Positions 44,388 through 49,055 of a stretch of DNA of 56,080 nucleotides are shown in pieces. Under the pieces are notes generated by a model, which was not told the origin of the DNA, searched no databases, and saw only the letters and a list, made by a program, of their open reading frames with translations. Numbering within the stretch: position 1 is the stretch's first letter; each line of letters opens with the position of its first letter. The translations under genes and the position numbers were made by a program. This DNA is from Cryptosporangium aurantiacum (GTDB taxonomy: Bacteria > Actinomycetota > Actinomycetes > Mycobacteriales > Cryptosporangiaceae): assembly GCF_900143005.1 (NCBI RefSeq), contig NZ_FRCS01000031.1, positions 1 through 56,080 of the forward strand, given 5' to 3'.

Positions 44388-44476
44388 GGAGGGCTCGCCT
44401 AGTGGCCGATGGCGGCAGTCTTGAAAACTGCTACACCGGGGAACCGGTGTCGTGGGTTCGAATCCCACGCCCTCCG
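44388..44476 (+). tRNA. tRNA-Ser (anticodon UGA)
   Basis: A complete class II tRNA. The 7-bp acceptor stem is GGAGGGC/GCCCTCC with discriminator G. The anticodon stem GCAGT/ACTGC presents loop CTTGAAA with anticodon TGA (44422-44424). The long variable arm is ACACCGG/CCGGTGT, and the T-arm is GTGGG-TTCGAAT-CCCAC. CCA is not encoded. It reads UCA and related serine codons and is a substrate of SerS, encoded at 10.7 kb. A defence-like gene pair begins just past it; tRNA-Ser genes are common integration sites, although I found no repeated 3' tRNA end nearby. Confidence 0.97.
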
Positions 44477-44594: not shown

Positions 44595-45236
44595 TTACGT
44601 CCCCTTCGACGTGACGGCGTCGACGAGGCGGTGCATCCCGGAGGACGGGTTGTCGTTTGGGAACGAGACGTCGTTCTGTCGATGCCGCTCCTCAACCAAC
44701 TTGGCCCGCCGGCTCGCGTCGTGTTTGTGGGGCATGTAGTGGACGCTCGACACTCCCTTGTTGTCCTGGCCGTCGCAGGCTCGGCGCAAGCGACTGGCGC
44801 CGGCGGTGTCGATGAACGACGTGTGGTCACGGAAGTGCCACACCAGCCAAATCTCGAAGCACGGGTTCGAGATGGCCAGGCTGATTCCCGCGCGCTGAGC
44901 CGTCTCGACTGCGCGAATCAGGCCTGGATGGTGCTGCGGCCATTCCACGTCGAAAACGCACCAGAACTCGTCCACTTCGCCCTGCTCACGCGTGTTCCGG
45001 TCCTTCGCCTCGATGGCCAGCTGAACCAGGGCTAACGGTGTGGAACTCTTGACAGAGGACTGGATTCGCAGGTCGACTGCGGCAGCATCCCGCACCTCGG
45101 GATCCCGCTTGAGCTCCTCCAAGTACTCCGGCTCGGTACGGCGCCCTTCGCAGTAGATGACGAAGGTCTTGCGCGGCCGACGAAAGCCGGTTCGCCGCTT
45201 CAGCGAGCTGGACGGCCGCCGCGACCTCGTAGTCAT
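44595..45236 (-). CDS. RloB family protein (AbiLii-like)
   Basis: A 213-residue RloB-domain protein. 'FVIYCEGRRTEPEYLEELK' near residue 25 is the RloB signature, with a glutamate placed as in TOPRIM-like nucleases. 'FWCVFDVEWPQHH' supplies the DxE pair, and 'SNPCFEIWLVWHF' is the other strongly conserved block. In lactococcal AbiL phage-abortive-infection systems, an AAA ATPase (AbiLi) is paired with an RloB protein (AbiLii). Here the ATG overlaps the ATPase stop by four bases, the same pairing. It is probably the nuclease-like effector of a defence system. It ends about 120 bases from the tRNA-Ser gene. Confidence 0.88.
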   Translation of the reverse strand: MTTRSRRPSSSLKRRTGFRRPRKTFVIYCEGRRTEPEYLEELKRDPEVRDAAAVDLRIQSSVKSSTPLALVQLAIEAKDRNTREQGEVDEFWCVFDVEWPQHHPGLIRAVETAQRAGISLAISNPCFEIWLVWHFRDHTSFIDTAGASRLRRACDGQDNKGVSSVHYMPHKHDASRRAKLVEERHRQNDVSFPNDNPSSGMHRLVDAVTSKGT

Positions 45237-46498
45237 CCGGGATCCTGCGGTTGGACACCGAGATAGGCCTTGAGCGCCTGCTGGTCCAGTTCCGGAACGG
45301 CTCCGAAACGCCCCTGCAGATAGGCCTTTTCGAGATTTAGTGAGCGCCGAACCTTGTCGCCGCCGAAATCGGAGAGGGGAGTCAAGGAGGTTGCGCCGCG
45401 AATCCCTTTATCGGTCAGCCATACCTCATCACGATTCAAATGGTTCAGTAAACTCGTGTCGTGGCTAGTGAACACGAGTTGGGCGCCCGAAGGGTTCGTC
45501 CTGGGGTCTTGGAAGAGTTCGAGGAGCTTCGCTGAGAGACGCGGATGGAGGCTCGCGTCGATCTCGTCGAAGAGCATCGTGCGCCCGGCTTTGAGCGCAC
45601 GTAGCACCGGCCCGATTAGTCTGAACCACGTCCGTGTGCCCTCGGATTCGTCGTAGAGGTTGAACGCGATTTTCTGGTCTTCCACCCGGTGAACCAGTCG
45701 AATCTGTCGACGAATCGGGGCATCGACGGCGTCGTCGACGGCCTCTTCCACCACTTCGACGTCATCGATTCCCAGATCCGCGAAGCGCAGCAGGCCGAGG
45801 CCTTGTGTGCGGCCGCGCTGGTCGGAACTCTCGACGAATAGGCGCTCGGTCTCAGATGCGCGGTACAACACTGGCGACGAGTACGCGTACCAATCAACAG
45901 TACGAGGCCTTCGGGGACGCGTGCCGAGAACAACGACGTTGGCAAGTTTGTGGCCGAACGGACTCACGTCAGGCTCGCGGAATCGCATTGCCGCCGAGAG
46001 TGCGAGCGTCGTCGGCGTCAGCAGTTCCCGGACGCCCGATAGCGCGGAGCCGAGGCCGCGCCGGAAGTGGATGTTCAAACCCTCTCGCTCGAACAGGAGA
46101 CGCTGGCGTCGTTCCGGGTAGCTGTAGAGCGCTTCGGTGGTCACCTCTTTGTCGGTCAGTTCGAGCTGGTAGGCGTATCGGACTCCGTCGACCATCATTT
46201 CGGCTTCGAAGGTGGTGGGTAGTCCGGCCGCGCTGGAGAATTTGAACGGCTCGCGCGGAATTGTCTCGTCCCACGCTCGTAGGGAGCGTCCGACGGCGGC
46301 CGAGAGCCAGGCGAGCGCGTCGACGACGTTCGACTTTCCGGAAGCGTTCGGACCGTAGATTCCGGCTACCGTGAGCACGCTCTCGTTCAGCAGGTCGAAC
46401 CGGCGGGCGGCTTCGCGATCGTCGTCGACGGCGACCATCGATAGCTCGACGGGCTCGTTGATCGAACGGTGGTTCGAGACCGCGAATCTCAGGAGCAC
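45233..46498 (-). CDS. AAA ATPase, RloA/AbiLi-like
   Basis: A 421-residue ABC/SMC-like AAA ATPase of the RloA type. 'LLRFAVSNHRSINEPVELSM' is the typical opening. Walker A is 'GIYGPNASGKSNVVDAL', Walker B 'MLFDEIDASLHPRL' and the switch 'VFTSHDTSLLN'. The GTG at 46498 is chosen because GGAGG sits six bases before it and it opens with 'LLRF' as in relatives; ATG at 46510 and GTG at 46525 are in frame. Codon use is visibly less GC-rich than in the flanking core genes, consistent with acquisition. It is probably the sensor/ATPase of the pair. Confidence 0.9.
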   Translation of the reverse strand: MLLRFAVSNHRSINEPVELSMVAVDDDREAARRFDLLNESVLTVAGIYGPNASGKSNVVDALAWLSAAVGRSLRAWDETIPREPFKFSSAAGLPTTFEAEMMVDGVRYAYQLELTDKEVTTEALYSYPERRQRLLFEREGLNIHFRRGLGSALSGVRELLTPTTLALSAAMRFREPDVSPFGHKLANVVVLGTRPRRPRTVDWYAYSSPVLYRASETERLFVESSDQRGRTQGLGLLRFADLGIDDVEVVEEAVDDAVDAPIRRQIRLVHRVEDQKIAFNLYDESEGTRTWFRLIGPVLRALKAGRTMLFDEIDASLHPRLSAKLLELFQDPRTNPSGAQLVFTSHDTSLLNHLNRDEVWLTDKGIRGATSLTPLSDFGGDKVRRSLNLEKAYLQGRFGAVPELDQQALKAYLGVQPQDPG

Positions 46499-46640
46499 TG
46501 CCGCCTCCATGCGTCGGACGTGCACTCTCGCGCCACTCTACGTCAAACTCCGACGGGATCAGGCGTCTGTATGCGCTTCGATGGGCCTGGGTGATAGCCT
46601 CGCCGGCAGCGTCGCGTGCCGGTAACGGTCAGCGTTAGGC

Positions 46641-46676: not shown

Positions 46677-46699
46677 GGACCGCTCCGACCACGCGGTGA
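46673..46699 (+). CDS. Possible leader mini-ORF (2) before hemerythrin
   Basis: An 8-codon frame (MRTAPTTR) whose TGA overlaps the hemerythrin GTG as GTGA. The GGAAG at 46661-46665 could serve as its ribosome site. Low confidence. Confidence 0.22.
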   Translation: MRTAPTTR

Positions 46700-47157
46700 C
46701 CCGGGACCGCGCACAAGCCTGGGGCCGCCAACTCCACCTTGTGCACCAGGCCCTCCGCCTGCGAATGACCAGGCTCCGCGAGTCGATCACCGATGGTGAA
46801 CCGCGCGAGAAACTCTCCACCGAACTCGGGCTGTTCTGCCTCGGGTTCTGTACCGCCCTCAACAGCCACCATCGCGCGGAGGACGGCGAACTGTTCCCCC
46901 GAATTCTGGCGGAACACCCCGGCCTCGCCCCGGTCGTCGCCAAGTTGAACGAGGACCACGTGTTGCTCGGGTACTTGCTCACCGACCTGGAACGAGCCGT
47001 GGCCACCGCGGACGCCGACGAGCTGCTCAGACACCTCGACGGAATCGAGGCGATCATGGACTCCCACTTCGGCTTCGAGGAACGGCAGATCACGGCCGTT
47101 CTCGATGCGATGACCACGACGGACGCGGACATCGTGCGCCTGCTCGGCGCCGATTAA
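46696..47157 (+). CDS. Hemerythrin domain protein
   Basis: A 153-residue four-helix hemerythrin-like protein. Likely di-iron ligands are His17 in 'LHLVHQALR', the HHxxE motif in 'NSHHRAEDGELFPRI', the His in 'LNEDHVLLG', and HxxxE in 'DSHFGFEERQI'. Such proteins bind O2, NO or peroxide. The GTG at 46696 is the only start codon in the open frame. It lies alone between the RloAB pair, read divergently, and the Y-RNA-like region. A hairpin follows the stop. Confidence 0.87.
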   Translation: MTRDRAQAWGRQLHLVHQALRLRMTRLRESITDGEPREKLSTELGLFCLGFCTALNSHHRAEDGELFPRILAEHPGLAPVVAKLNEDHVLLGYLLTDLERAVATADADELLRHLDGIEAIMDSHFGFEERQITAVLDAMTTTDADIVRLLGAD

Positions 47158-47163
47158 CTCAGT

Positions 47164-47187
47164 TGCCCGGTGCGCCCGCACCGGGCA
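47164..47187 (+). terminator. Hairpin after the hemerythrin gene
   Basis: TGCCCGGTGCG pairs with CGCACCGGGCA (11 bp, 2-base apex), starting 7 bases after the hemerythrin stop. It separates that gene from the downstream non-coding RNAs. Confidence 0.65.
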
Positions 47188-47201
47188 CTCTCAATGGCGC
47201 A

Positions 47202-47305
47202 CCTCCCGGTGCGAAGACCACGGCTACTTCTTTGGTGAAAAGGCCCGCATCAGGGCCTGCGAGTTCGAATCTCGCGCTGCCGCGGTCATCTTTGATCTCG
47301 GGAGG
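47202..47305 (+). ncRNA. Y-RNA-like RNA 1 (reduced tRNA-like module)
   Basis: The ends pair: CCTCCCG (47202-47208) with CGGGAGG (47299-47305). An internal loop with GTGCGAA on the 5' side and ATCTTTGATCT on the 3' side follows, then a second helix GACCACGGC/GCCGCGGTC (47216-47224 with 47279-47287, one mismatch). Inside are a 6-bp hairpin (47241-47258) and a canonical tRNA T-arm, GCGAG-TTCGAAT-CTCGC (47259-47275). There is no D-arm. GGTGCGAAG resembles the GGUCCGAAG strand of the Ro60-binding helix of animal Y RNAs. Position upstream of a Ro60 gene fits a bacterial Y RNA. Exact ends are not known. Confidence 0.75.
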
Positions 47306-47323
47306 CTCGAACTACACGGCGGT

Positions 47324-47464
47324 GCCCGTCCGGTGCGAAGTACAGGGTTACTTCCACTCGAAAAATGGGATGGTTATCGGTTCGAATCCGGTCGGCGCCT
47401 TCGGACGCTGTAGCTCAATTCGGTAGAGCATCACGTACCTTGTGCGATTTGATCTCGGCCGGGC
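47324..47464 (+). ncRNA. Y-RNA-like RNA 2 (YrlA-type, permuted tRNA mimic)
   Basis: The end helix is GCCCGTCCG/CGGCCGGGC (47324-47332 with 47456-47464, one mismatch). The same GGTGCGAAG and TTTGATCTCGG strands as in RNA 1 recur (offsets 124 and 157 bases). The interior is a tRNA in permuted order: T-arm ATCGG-TTCGAAT-CCGGT (47376-47392), an acceptor-like stem CGGCGCC/GACGCTG capped by TTCG (47393-47410), then TA and a D-arm GCTC-AATTCGGTA-GAGC (47411-47429). T- and D-loop bases needed for the tRNA elbow are all present. This is the layout described for YrlA RNAs. Confidence 0.8.
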
Positions 47465-47486
47465 TCCGCCGTGTAGTTTCGCCTTC

Positions 47487-47503
47487 CCTCCGACAAATGG
47501 AGG
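47487..47503 (+). promoter_or_regulatory. Hairpin that can hide the Ro60 ribosome binding site
   Basis: CCTCC (47487-47491) can pair with the GGAGG ribosome binding site (47499-47503) around a 7-base loop, 7 bases before the Ro60 ATG. It is only 23 bases past the end of Y-RNA-like RNA 2. Confidence 0.55.
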
Positions 47504-47510
47504 TCGAGCC

Positions 47511-49055
47511 ATGTCCAAGTTCAACCGCAACACCGTGCGGCCCGCCGCCAACTCGCCGATTGTCGGCGAGACGGTCGCGTCGGGCGTCACCTACGAGGGT
47601 GGCCCGGGATTCGCGCGCGACGTCAAGTCGGAGCTCTTCCTGCTGGCCGTGACCAACATGGTCGGCGAGGACACGTTCTACGAGGCCGGCGCGAAGCGCG
47701 ATGCCCGGTATGAGCGGCTCGTGCGCGCAGCGACCACCGCGGACCCGGACTGGACGGCCCGTTTCCTGCGGTGGCTGCGCGGCGATGCCAACATGCGCTC
47801 GGCGTCGCTGGTGGGCGCCGCCGCGTTCGCTGCGGAGCGGGTCCAGCGGCGGCAGCCGGGGATGACCCGCCAGGTTGTCGCCTCGGTGCTGCAGCGTGCC
47901 GACGAGCCGGGTGAGCTGCTGGCCTACTGGACATCCCGGTACGGCCGGTCGATCCCGAAGCCGGTGAAGCGAGGCATCGCCGATGCGGTGGTTCGCCTCT
48001 ACGACGAGCGGTCGCTGCTCAAGTACGACGCGGACACGCGCGGCTTCCGGTTCGGTGACGTCCTCGAACTCGCTCACCCCTCGCCTCGGGCGTCCTGGCA
48101 AGGGGCGCTGTTCCGGTACGCGATCGACCGGCGCCACAACCGGCCGAACGCGATCCCGGACGAGCTGTCCGTGCTCCGTGCGCGGGCCGAGCTGACCGCA
48201 CTGCCGGTCGACGAGCGGCGCGCGGCACTCGACCCCGAGCGGCTGCGCGCGGCCGGGATGACGTGGGAGTCGGTCGCCGGCTGGCTGCAGGGCCCGATGG
48301 ATGCCGCGGCCTGGACGTCGCTGATCCCGACGATGGGTTACATGGCGCTCCTGCGTAACCTGCGGAACTTCGACGAGGCCGGCGTCCCGGACGAGGCCGC
48401 CGCTCAGGTCGCTGCGCGGCTGGCCGACCCCGCACAGGTCGCGAAGTCCCGGCAGCTGCCGATGCGGTTCCTGTCCGCGTACCGGGCCGCACCGTCGCTG
48501 CGGTGGGGTAAGGCGCTCGAGTCCGCGCTGGCAGCGAGCCTGGCGAACGTCCCTGCACTGCCCGGGCGGACGCTGGTTCTCGTCGACCGGTCCGGGTCGA
48601 TGTTCGACCGGATGTCGGCCCGGTCGGAGCTGACCCGTGCGGATGCGGCAGCGCTGTTCGGATCCGCGCTGGCGGTGCGGGCCGAGAATCCGACGCTCGT
48701 CGAGTTCGGTACCCGCTCGCGCGAGGTGCGGCTGCCGCGCGGCACGTCCGTGCTCCGGATGCTGGAACGCTTCGGCGACCTGGGCGGCACGAATACGGCG
48801 TCGGCGGTGGGGAAGCACTACCGGAAGCACGATCGGGTCGTGATCGTCACCGACGAGCAGGTGTGGGGCGGCCGTTACGGCGCCGAGCCGACCAGCGTGG
48901 TGCCGCCGAACGTGCCGGTTTACACCTGGAACCTCGCGGGCTACCGGTATGGGCACGGTCCGTCCGGCGTCGCCAACCGGCACACGTTCGGCGGGCTCTC
49001 GGACGCTGCCTTCCGGATGCTTCCGCTGCTCGAAGCGTCCACCTGGCCGTTCTGA
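47511..49055 (+). CDS. rsr: Ro60/TROVE domain RNA-binding protein
   Basis: A 514-residue Ro60 orthologue. The N-terminal two thirds are the HEAT-repeat TROVE ring ('VTNMVGEDTFYEAGAKRD', 'WTARFLRWLRGDANMRSASLVGA', 'IPTMGYMALLRNLRNFDEAGV'). The C-terminal third is a von Willebrand A domain with MIDAS 'LVDRSGSM'. Ro60 binds Y RNAs on its outer surface and the 3' ends of misfolded RNAs in its channel; in Deinococcus a Y RNA tethers it to PNPase. ATG at 47511 has GGAGG 7 bases upstream. Two Y-RNA-like sequences lie directly upstream. No rtcB or pnp gene is in the window. Confidence 0.95.
   Translation: MSKFNRNTVRPAANSPIVGETVASGVTYEGGPGFARDVKSELFLLAVTNMVGEDTFYEAGAKRDARYERLVRAATTADPDWTARFLRWLRGDANMRSASLVGAAAFAAERVQRRQPGMTRQVVASVLQRADEPGELLAYWTSRYGRSIPKPVKRGIADAVVRLYDERSLLKYDADTRGFRFGDVLELAHPSPRASWQGALFRYAIDRRHNRPNAIPDELSVLRARAELTALPVDERRAALDPERLRAAGMTWESVAGWLQGPMDAAAWTSLIPTMGYMALLRNLRNFDEAGVPDEAAAQVAARLADPAQVAKSRQLPMRFLSAYRAAPSLRWGKALESALAASLANVPALPGRTLVLVDRSGSMFDRMSARSELTRADAAALFGSALAVRAENPTLVEFGTRSREVRLPRGTSVLRMLERFGDLGGTNTASAVGKHYRKHDRVVIVTDEQVWGGRYGAEPTSVVPPNVPVYTWNLAGYRYGHGPSGVANRHTFGGLSDAAFRMLPLLEASTWPF

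Follow-up and report, generated by a model that had tools for sequence, protein, structure and literature searches.

Does the DNA between the hemerythrin-like gene (46696-47157) and the Ro60 gene (47511-49055) of this window, the 56,080-nucleotide stretch analysed here, encode two Y RNAs, and if so, in what respect is the pair unusual? We think, with a probability of roughly 0.85, that both units flanked by these genes on the + strand are tandem bacterial Y RNAs (Yrl) lying in the Ro60 leader region, with Ro60-docking stems and differing tRNA-like effector heads. The features are listed below; L085 is a locus of a second genome of the genus, and R1 and R2 are covariance models of our own.

47202..47305, + strand: putative Y RNA unit 1, reduced core (variable-arm-like hairpin and T arm); evidence from motifs, fold, covariation (n=9) and model R1
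47242..47257, + strand: hairpin of unit 1, GGCCC-GCATCA-GGGCC, a lookalike of the class II tRNA variable arm
47259..47275, + strand: T arm of unit 1, GCGAG-TTCGAAT-CTCGC
47309..47322, + strand: outer stem of unit 2, 5' strand, partner 47466-47479; evidence from fold and a compensatory change in L085
47326..47462, + strand: putative Y RNA unit 2, permuted tRNA core; evidence from the Rfam YrlA match (37 bits), model R2 and covariation
47352..47370, + strand: anticodon-arm-like hairpin of unit 2, TTCCA/TGGGA with the nine-nt loop CTCGAAAAA
47376..47392, + strand: T arm of unit 2
47393..47410, + strand: acceptor-like stem of unit 2, CGGCGCC/GACGCTG, six of seven positions paired, closed by a TTCG loop
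47411..47429, + strand: D arm of unit 2 (TAGCTCAATTCGGTAGAGC)
47466..47479, + strand: outer stem of unit 2, 3' strand
47499..47503, + strand: GGAGG, ribosome-binding-like site of the Ro60 gene (sequence)
47511..49055, + strand: Ro60 (TROVE) gene, 514 aa; Pfam TROVE (PF05731), E 5.6e-15, and TROVE chains in PDB

Sequence and fold of the two units

The original prediction had described two non-coding units with shared 5' and 3' motifs, a constant distance to TACTTC, and end pairing, placed directly before a TROVE/Ro60 gene. The gene was confirmed by the Pfam match listed above and by matches of its protein to two TROVE chains in PDB (E 5e-27). The shared motifs were also found as described. GGTGCGAAG occupies 47208-47216 in unit 1 and 47332-47340 in unit 2, and TACTTC follows at 47225-47230 and 47349-47354, in both cases 17 nt from the start of GGTGCGAAG. 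TTTGATCTCGG lies at 47291-47301 and 47448-47458, so that the units have in common CGGTGCGAAG, an equally spaced TACTTC, and then TTTGATCTCGG. The original prediction also likened the 5' strand of the units to GGUCCGAAG, the strand by which animal Y RNAs bind Ro60.

Both units can close by end pairing, as had been proposed. Unit 1 is closed by CCTCCCG/CGGGAGG in a structure with a minimum free energy (MFE) of −51.3 kcal/mol (z −4.46), and none of 200 shuffles was as low. For unit 2, the pairing is significant only when the outer stem is included (47308-47484; −79.7, z −4.97, 0 of 200 shuffles). The MFE structure of 47322-47468 closes as well, at a value no better than chance (z −1.05, 29 of 200 shuffles), and the MFE structures of the trimmed sequences 47326-47462 (z −0.49, 65 of 200) and 47328-47461 (z −0.08, 93 of 200) were unclosed. 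Single-sequence folding of unit 2 lacking the outer stem was therefore set aside as uninformative, its z values being at chance level. A local GAAG...CTTC hairpin in every unit was also considered and dropped, because many units have GCGCAG and cannot form it.

Matches to known RNA families

At the Rfam gathering score nothing was matched at the locus, the only match in the window being a tRNA at 44388. A relaxed search detected YrlA (RF02553) in unit 2, the match spanning 47369-47432 and scoring 37.0 bits against a gathering score of 69 bits (E 1.3e-6); it is the best YrlA match in the whole 9.58-Mb genome (E 6.3e-6). Unit 2 contains the permuted T arm - acceptor - D arm core of the YrlA type. 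Unit 1 has neither a D arm nor an acceptor stem, and hence no such core; it gave no match to YrlA or animal Y RNA at E ≤ 10, and the animal Y RNA covariance model (RF00019) was not among the four locus matches at that threshold. The three overlapping Rfam matches to unit 1 are all at chance level (E 1, 4.8 and 9.2). Accordingly, we rejected tRNA-Sec (13.5 bits, E 9.2) as an identity for unit 1, and likewise the remaining two overlapping matches, the better of which has E 1 and is on the opposite strand. The covariance-model check proposed with the prediction thus gave a match for unit 2, below the gathering score, and no significant one for unit 1. Neither ARAGORN nor RF00005 called a tRNA at the unit locus. 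R1 and R2, trained on Ro60-adjacent units, score unit 1 at 89.1 bits and unit 2 at 114.6 bits, each unit being itself a training sequence of the respective model.

Among the 28 actinobacterial Ro60 loci scanned with Rfam at gathering score (of 81, the window aside), none contained a YrlA match; in one of the loci (L014), a unit was reported by Rfam as a tRNA scoring 29.9 bits.

A second permuted tRNA-like element occurs elsewhere in the same genome (C4:670611-670716; L135 103-223), with 36.4 bits for R2 and 30.3 bits for RF02553. It adjoins a tRNA-like gene with the anticodon TCA, and the only TROVE match of the genome is that of the window. The genome also has arrays of 13-16 unusual tRNA genes (C2:493350-495250 and C3:1500-2950). 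Some weak YrlA matches arise at tandem tRNA junctions because a T arm followed by a D arm mimics the permuted order.

Conservation and covariation in relatives

A Ro60 gene is present in two of the five genomes of the family that were examined, one being the window's own and the other that of L085. Both units are kept in L085, with identities of 85.6% (unit 1) and 89.9% (unit 2). The 20-nt spacer between the units, which includes part of the outer stem, is as well conserved as the units themselves (90.0%). Of the surrounding sequence, the part immediately before the units is 61.5% identical, the hemerythrin gene 74.7%, the leader 70.0% and the initial 380 nt of Ro60 82.9%. Unit 2 has, in its outer stem, a compensatory change from G-C to A-U in L085.

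Covariation in relatives, another element of the prediction, was found for both unit types. In the alignment of the unit 1 type (n=9), 87.3% of the cells are paired and 8 of 31 pairs show two-sided change, a number reached in 3 of 500 shuffles. The covariation score of 0.207 was matched by none of 500 shuffles and by none of the slid controls, and one of five measures, further pair types, was not above the shuffles (218 of 500). The unit 2 type (n=16) is 92.3% paired, with two-sided change in 24 of 44 pairs, and on each of the five measures all 500 shuffles stayed lower. The misfits in this alignment are pair 14-135, which fails in 15 of 16 sequences, and pairs 26-120 and 27-119, which fail in 7 of 16. 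When RNAalifold was applied to it with no structure given, the stem, anticodon-like arm, T arm, acceptor stem and D arm were all predicted. Most of the units in this alignment were chosen for 5/5 pairing in the anticodon-like arm, so that pairing and covariation of the arm are biased there, and the unbiased test for the arm is therefore the register and shuffle count given below. The alignments show the predicted end helix of each unit (GGTGCGNAG / GATCTCGG) to be conserved and to covary in relatives, and in both unit types covariation backs this helix together with its conserved internal-loop motif.

Tandem units are the rule upstream of the actinobacterial Ro60 genes examined

To the best 80 of 463 actinobacterial Ro60 loci found, we added L085 and the window, and the 900 nt upstream of Ro60 in these 82 loci were searched for units by motifs and end pairing. 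There were 179 units upstream of the 82 Ro60 genes, compared with 16 hits in 1,473,684 nt of control sequence; therefore, the two mismatch-free units of the window are not a chance occurrence. Two units were found in 64 loci, three in 12, four in 3 and one in 3, some of the units being wrongly ended by the finder (lengths of 170-200, one incomplete). A looser version of the finder, some of whose units are artefacts, gave two in 41 loci, three in 33, four in 5, one in 2 and five in 1 (29 control hits in 1,469,462 nt elsewhere). Since 79 of the 82 loci have two to four units, it is usual among these relatives for units with unlike cores to stand in tandem, and the claim that a tandem pair is a rarity in this clade has to be abandoned.

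Four types of core were seen: permuted tRNA cores of about 125-150 nt; cores like that of unit 1, with a hairpin and a T arm, of 83-94 nt (the window, L085, L024, L051, L006, L008, L009, L036 and L012); small T-arm variants of about 100 nt; and minimal units of about 60 nt with no likeness to tRNA.

An anticodon-like arm in the permuted core

The order of elements in the core of unit 2 is anticodon-like arm, V loop, T arm, acceptor stem and D arm, as in a circularly permuted tRNA that has been opened between positions 26 and 27 with the helix inserted there. The core of unit 1 consists only of the V-arm-like hairpin and the T arm. The description of the pair as one full and one reduced tRNA mimic is therefore accurate, with unit 2 the full mimic.

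We scanned 128 permuted units for an anticodon arm, defined as a 5-bp stem that begins with the TTC of TACTTC and closes on a 7-nt loop, with 3-7 nt left before the T stem. A canonical arm (5 bp, 7-nt loop) before the T arm was found in exactly that register in 39 of the 128 units; the other registers or loop lengths tried gave at most four cases each, and 300 shuffles gave a mean of 0.95 and a maximum of 5. In the loops of the 39 arms, which are phylogenetically non-independent, position 33 is T in 37, position 37 is a purine in 38, and position 38 is A in all 39. Pair 31-39 is AT in 29, TA in 4, CG in 3 and GC in 3, and pair 30-40 is CG in 29, GC in 7, TA in 2 and AT in 1. Named loci account for 23 of these units (nine named genera plus a MAG), L085 for one, and other genomes for 15. 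The arm of unit 2 in the window has the TTCCA/TGGGA stem and a loop widened to nine nucleotides where L085 has the 7-nt CTGATAA, and hence unit 2 is not itself among the 39; the L006 type, with four of five pairs, is also outside this set.

When the cores were re-ordered as acceptor-D-anticodon-T, ARAGORN reported a tRNA in 108 of 128, comprising all 39 arm-bearing cores and 69 of the 89 others. The same cores gave no call in their natural order (0 of 128) or after shuffling (0 of 128, one shuffle per unit). The totals of 128 in the arm scan and in the ARAGORN analysis result from different filters on 259 distinct sequences; for ARAGORN, 126 were skipped and 133 used, 128 of them with a D arm. 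In the anticodon-arm units, the acceptor stem is fully paired (7/7) in 36 of 39, and the acceptor ends are linked by 2-11 nt (search range 2-18).

The consensus line of Rfam YrlA has no anticodon arm, its closing pairs running straight into the V loop and T arm, and the excerpt of PMC8394870 used here describes the tRNA-like part of bacterial Y RNA as D, T and acceptor arms. Against both of these, the anticodon-bearing core looks new. YrlA units at three loci of other phyla were inspected for the arm. An alphaproteobacterial YrlA (L260) has an insert at the arm position that we read as a TCG-CTTATGA-CGA hairpin, and therefore the arm may be older than, or not special to, actinobacteria. The Deinococcus gobiensis unit also has an insert at this position, in our reading one that differs in having no canonical 7-nt anticodon loop.

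Likeness to tRNA isotypes

The D arms of 95 units of at least 115 nt were compared with 49 of the 78 tRNAs from the window's genome, the 29 tRNAs of the two odd arrays being left out. The D side is nearest to tRNA-Leu in 21 of the 95 units, and these may represent a single inheritance because all 21 are from Streptomyces loci. In 15 of the 21, a hairpin of at least five pairs that resembles a class II variable arm stands just before the T stem (for example, ATGAGGG-AAAA-CCCTCGT in L069), a count that has no shuffle control. The D side is nearest to tRNA-Glu, with wide margins (e.g. 42 vs 19), in three of the 95 units (L005, L010 and L014). The 3' half of unit 1 (hairpin and T arm) is also nearest to tRNA-Leu, with a score of 35 (Ser, 30). 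Leu is best in only four of the nine units of this type, the others being L024, L051 and L012 and not L085 or the four Rhodococcus units; thus, an isotype reading of unit 1 was rejected and the likeness is kept as a resemblance.

Linkage of the units to Ro60

A survey of 394 genomes of the class included 51 with a Ro60 protein match at E ≤ 1e-20. R1 at E ≤ 0.01 matched 36 genomes, all of which are among the 51, some of the matches being far from the Ro60 gene. Full-length R2 matches of at least 62 bits occurred in 49 genomes, 47 of them among the 51; in the other two (G319 and G387), the units are directly followed by divergent TROVE + vWA_Ro60 genes. A strong R2 match is missing from four of the 51. 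At E ≤ 0.001, R2 matched at least 244 of the 394 genomes, and many of the R2 matches listed span only positions 27-105, the tRNA-like core. Strong unit matches are confined to Ro60 genomes, and weaker full-length R2 matches (about 48-60 bits) occur in some genomes with no detected Ro60.

What the units are likely to be

Taken with the covariation and the sub-gathering YrlA match of unit 2, the co-occurrence with Ro60 upholds the identification of the units as Y RNAs. A different view would be that they are not separate RNAs but cis-acting leader structures controlling the Ro60 mRNA, such as an attenuator or a Ro60-bound autoregulatory site. Their position, about 50 nt before the start codon and on the same strand, is what one would expect of a leader. 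In addition, no sigma-70-like promoter was found in 47000-47560 by a search that covers actinobacterial promoters poorly, and both terminator-like sites of this region lie within the units. We nevertheless consider the leader explanation unlikely. Units also occur away from detected Ro60, for instance at the 5' end of a priA-like frame; tRNA-mimicking heads would be superfluous in a leader that merely binds a protein; and the Yrl RNAs known so far bind Ro60 orthologues as separate RNAs, according to the excerpt of PMC4726728 used here.

The likeness to tRNA raises two further alternatives, both of which we regard as very improbable. The units could be decayed tRNA genes or the debris of a tRNA array that came to lie upstream of Ro60 by chance, given that a YrlA-like order arises at tandem tRNA junctions and that weak YrlA matches of this kind exist in this genome. 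Debris would hardly be expected to show covariation in stem and arms, conservation above that of most flanks (in L085), and a repeated linkage to Ro60 in 82 loci, and in their natural order the cores were never called as tRNA. Alternatively, they could be real tRNA genes in permuted form whose products work as tRNAs, in keeping with rotated cores that read as complete tRNAs with plausible anticodons. The short linkers that join the acceptor ends, the helix of Ro60 type that interrupts positions 26/27, and the difference in the anticodon-like loop between the window (CTCGAAAAA) and L085 all argue against functional tRNAs.

The reading that we favour is that of two Y RNAs that would serve one Ro60. 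Binding of Ro60 by the stem and recruitment of effectors by the head are inferred because of the analogy with Deinococcus and Salmonella, in both of which Rsr binds the Y RNA stem; the Deinococcus Y RNA tethers Rsr to PNPase (excerpts of PMC4726728 and PMC8394870). One could envision that the units are cut out of a precursor, possibly one that includes the Ro60 mRNA leader, and that they are bound to the Ro60 ring through the end helix, so that the tRNA-like head projects as an effector-binding module. The head might then keep an enzyme beside the ring, either a nuclease, which in the known case is PNPase, or one that recognises tRNA, and two heads would give Ro60 two different effector contacts. 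A complete tRNA-like head would suit an enzyme that reads whole tRNAs. The anticodon arm would fit the idea of Hughes et al., who suggested the YrlA tRNA-like domain as a competitive inhibitor of anticodon nuclease (excerpt of PMC7790460).

A more general hypothesis, which we put forward only tentatively, is that arrays of two to four Y RNAs serve actinobacterial Ro60 as a repertoire of tRNA decoys or adaptors, many of the heads being complete permuted tRNAs with an anticodon arm and of differing isotypes (Leu-like in the D arm and with a variable arm of class II type; Glu-like; or generic). If this is true, the repertoire would let Ro60 sense tRNAs, protect them from anticodon nucleases, or direct enzymes specific for tRNA. 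Work on bacterial Y RNAs has so far covered few species, and an anticodon arm with a canonical loop, occurring in arrays whose heads are diverse, opens to direct test the question whether the Ro60 RNP acts on tRNAs or imitates them.

Comparison with known systems

With YrlA (RF02553), unit 2 shares the long end helix, the permuted T arm - acceptor - D arm core, and the adjoining Ro60 gene; it differs in scoring below the 69-bit gathering score and in having the anticodon-like arm added between helix and T arm. Unit 1 departs further, having no D arm and no acceptor stem. In Salmonella, the rsr-yrlBA-rtcBA operon likewise combines two Y RNAs with one Ro60 ortholog, and YrlA has a tRNA-like domain; unlike that operon as described in the excerpt of PMC7790460, the RNAs here are upstream of Ro60, and the neighbours are hemerythrin and metallo-beta-lactamase-fold genes rather than rtcBA. 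The Deinococcus Y RNA of RYPER has a modular design of a Ro60-binding stem and an effector-binding head (excerpt of PMC4726728), like the one proposed for the units here. The same excerpt describes a Yrl RNA of Mycobacterium smegmatis, also an actinobacterial Y RNA, as bound by Rsr. The ordinary aspects of the locus are thus the Y RNAs adjoining Ro60 and their tandem arrangement. What is notable is that permuted tRNAs bear an anticodon arm, that the other head is of a different kind, and that no YrlA match at gathering score was obtained in the loci scanned.

Additional observations

A perfect hairpin, TGCCCGGTGCG-CCC-GCACCGGGCA, lies between the hemerythrin gene and unit 1 (about 47163-47192) and is not kept in L085. 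ARAGORN reported a tRNA-Ala at 48636-48724, inside the Ro60 coding sequence; the call has no Rfam tRNA support and is probably spurious. On the − strand, the neighbouring AAA_21 and RloB genes (44595-46525) were matched by PADLOC to AbiLi/AbiLii, an abortive-infection system (E 5e-91 and 1.7e-26). That RloB-like proteins adjoin a tRNA-mimic locus may be a coincidence.

The units at the priA-like frame belong to one genus (L227, L228, L231 and L233, and also L230). PriA_3primeBD was identified in the first four, and metK on the other side was confirmed by Pfam only in L231.

Ro-like loci were also found in six actinophages (L234-L238 and L241), with annotated tRNA genes on both sides in L234, L235 and L237. 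Five of the six have at least two full-length R2 matches at E ≤ 0.01. L238, in which an RNA ligase gene adjoins the Ro-like gene, has one full-length match; in L237, R2 matches lie downstream of the Ro-like gene, one of them covering two annotated tRNAs. The tRNA-Arg annotations that precede the Ro-like gene in Streptomyces phage GiJojo (L234 1264-1410) and Gordonia phage VanLee (L236 1203-1340) overlap full-length R2 matches, and these genes therefore look like Y RNA units. Such labels in two of the six phage loci, together with YrlA being missed at the Rfam gathering score in 28 of 28 scanned actinobacterial Ro60 loci, point to a gap in current annotation.
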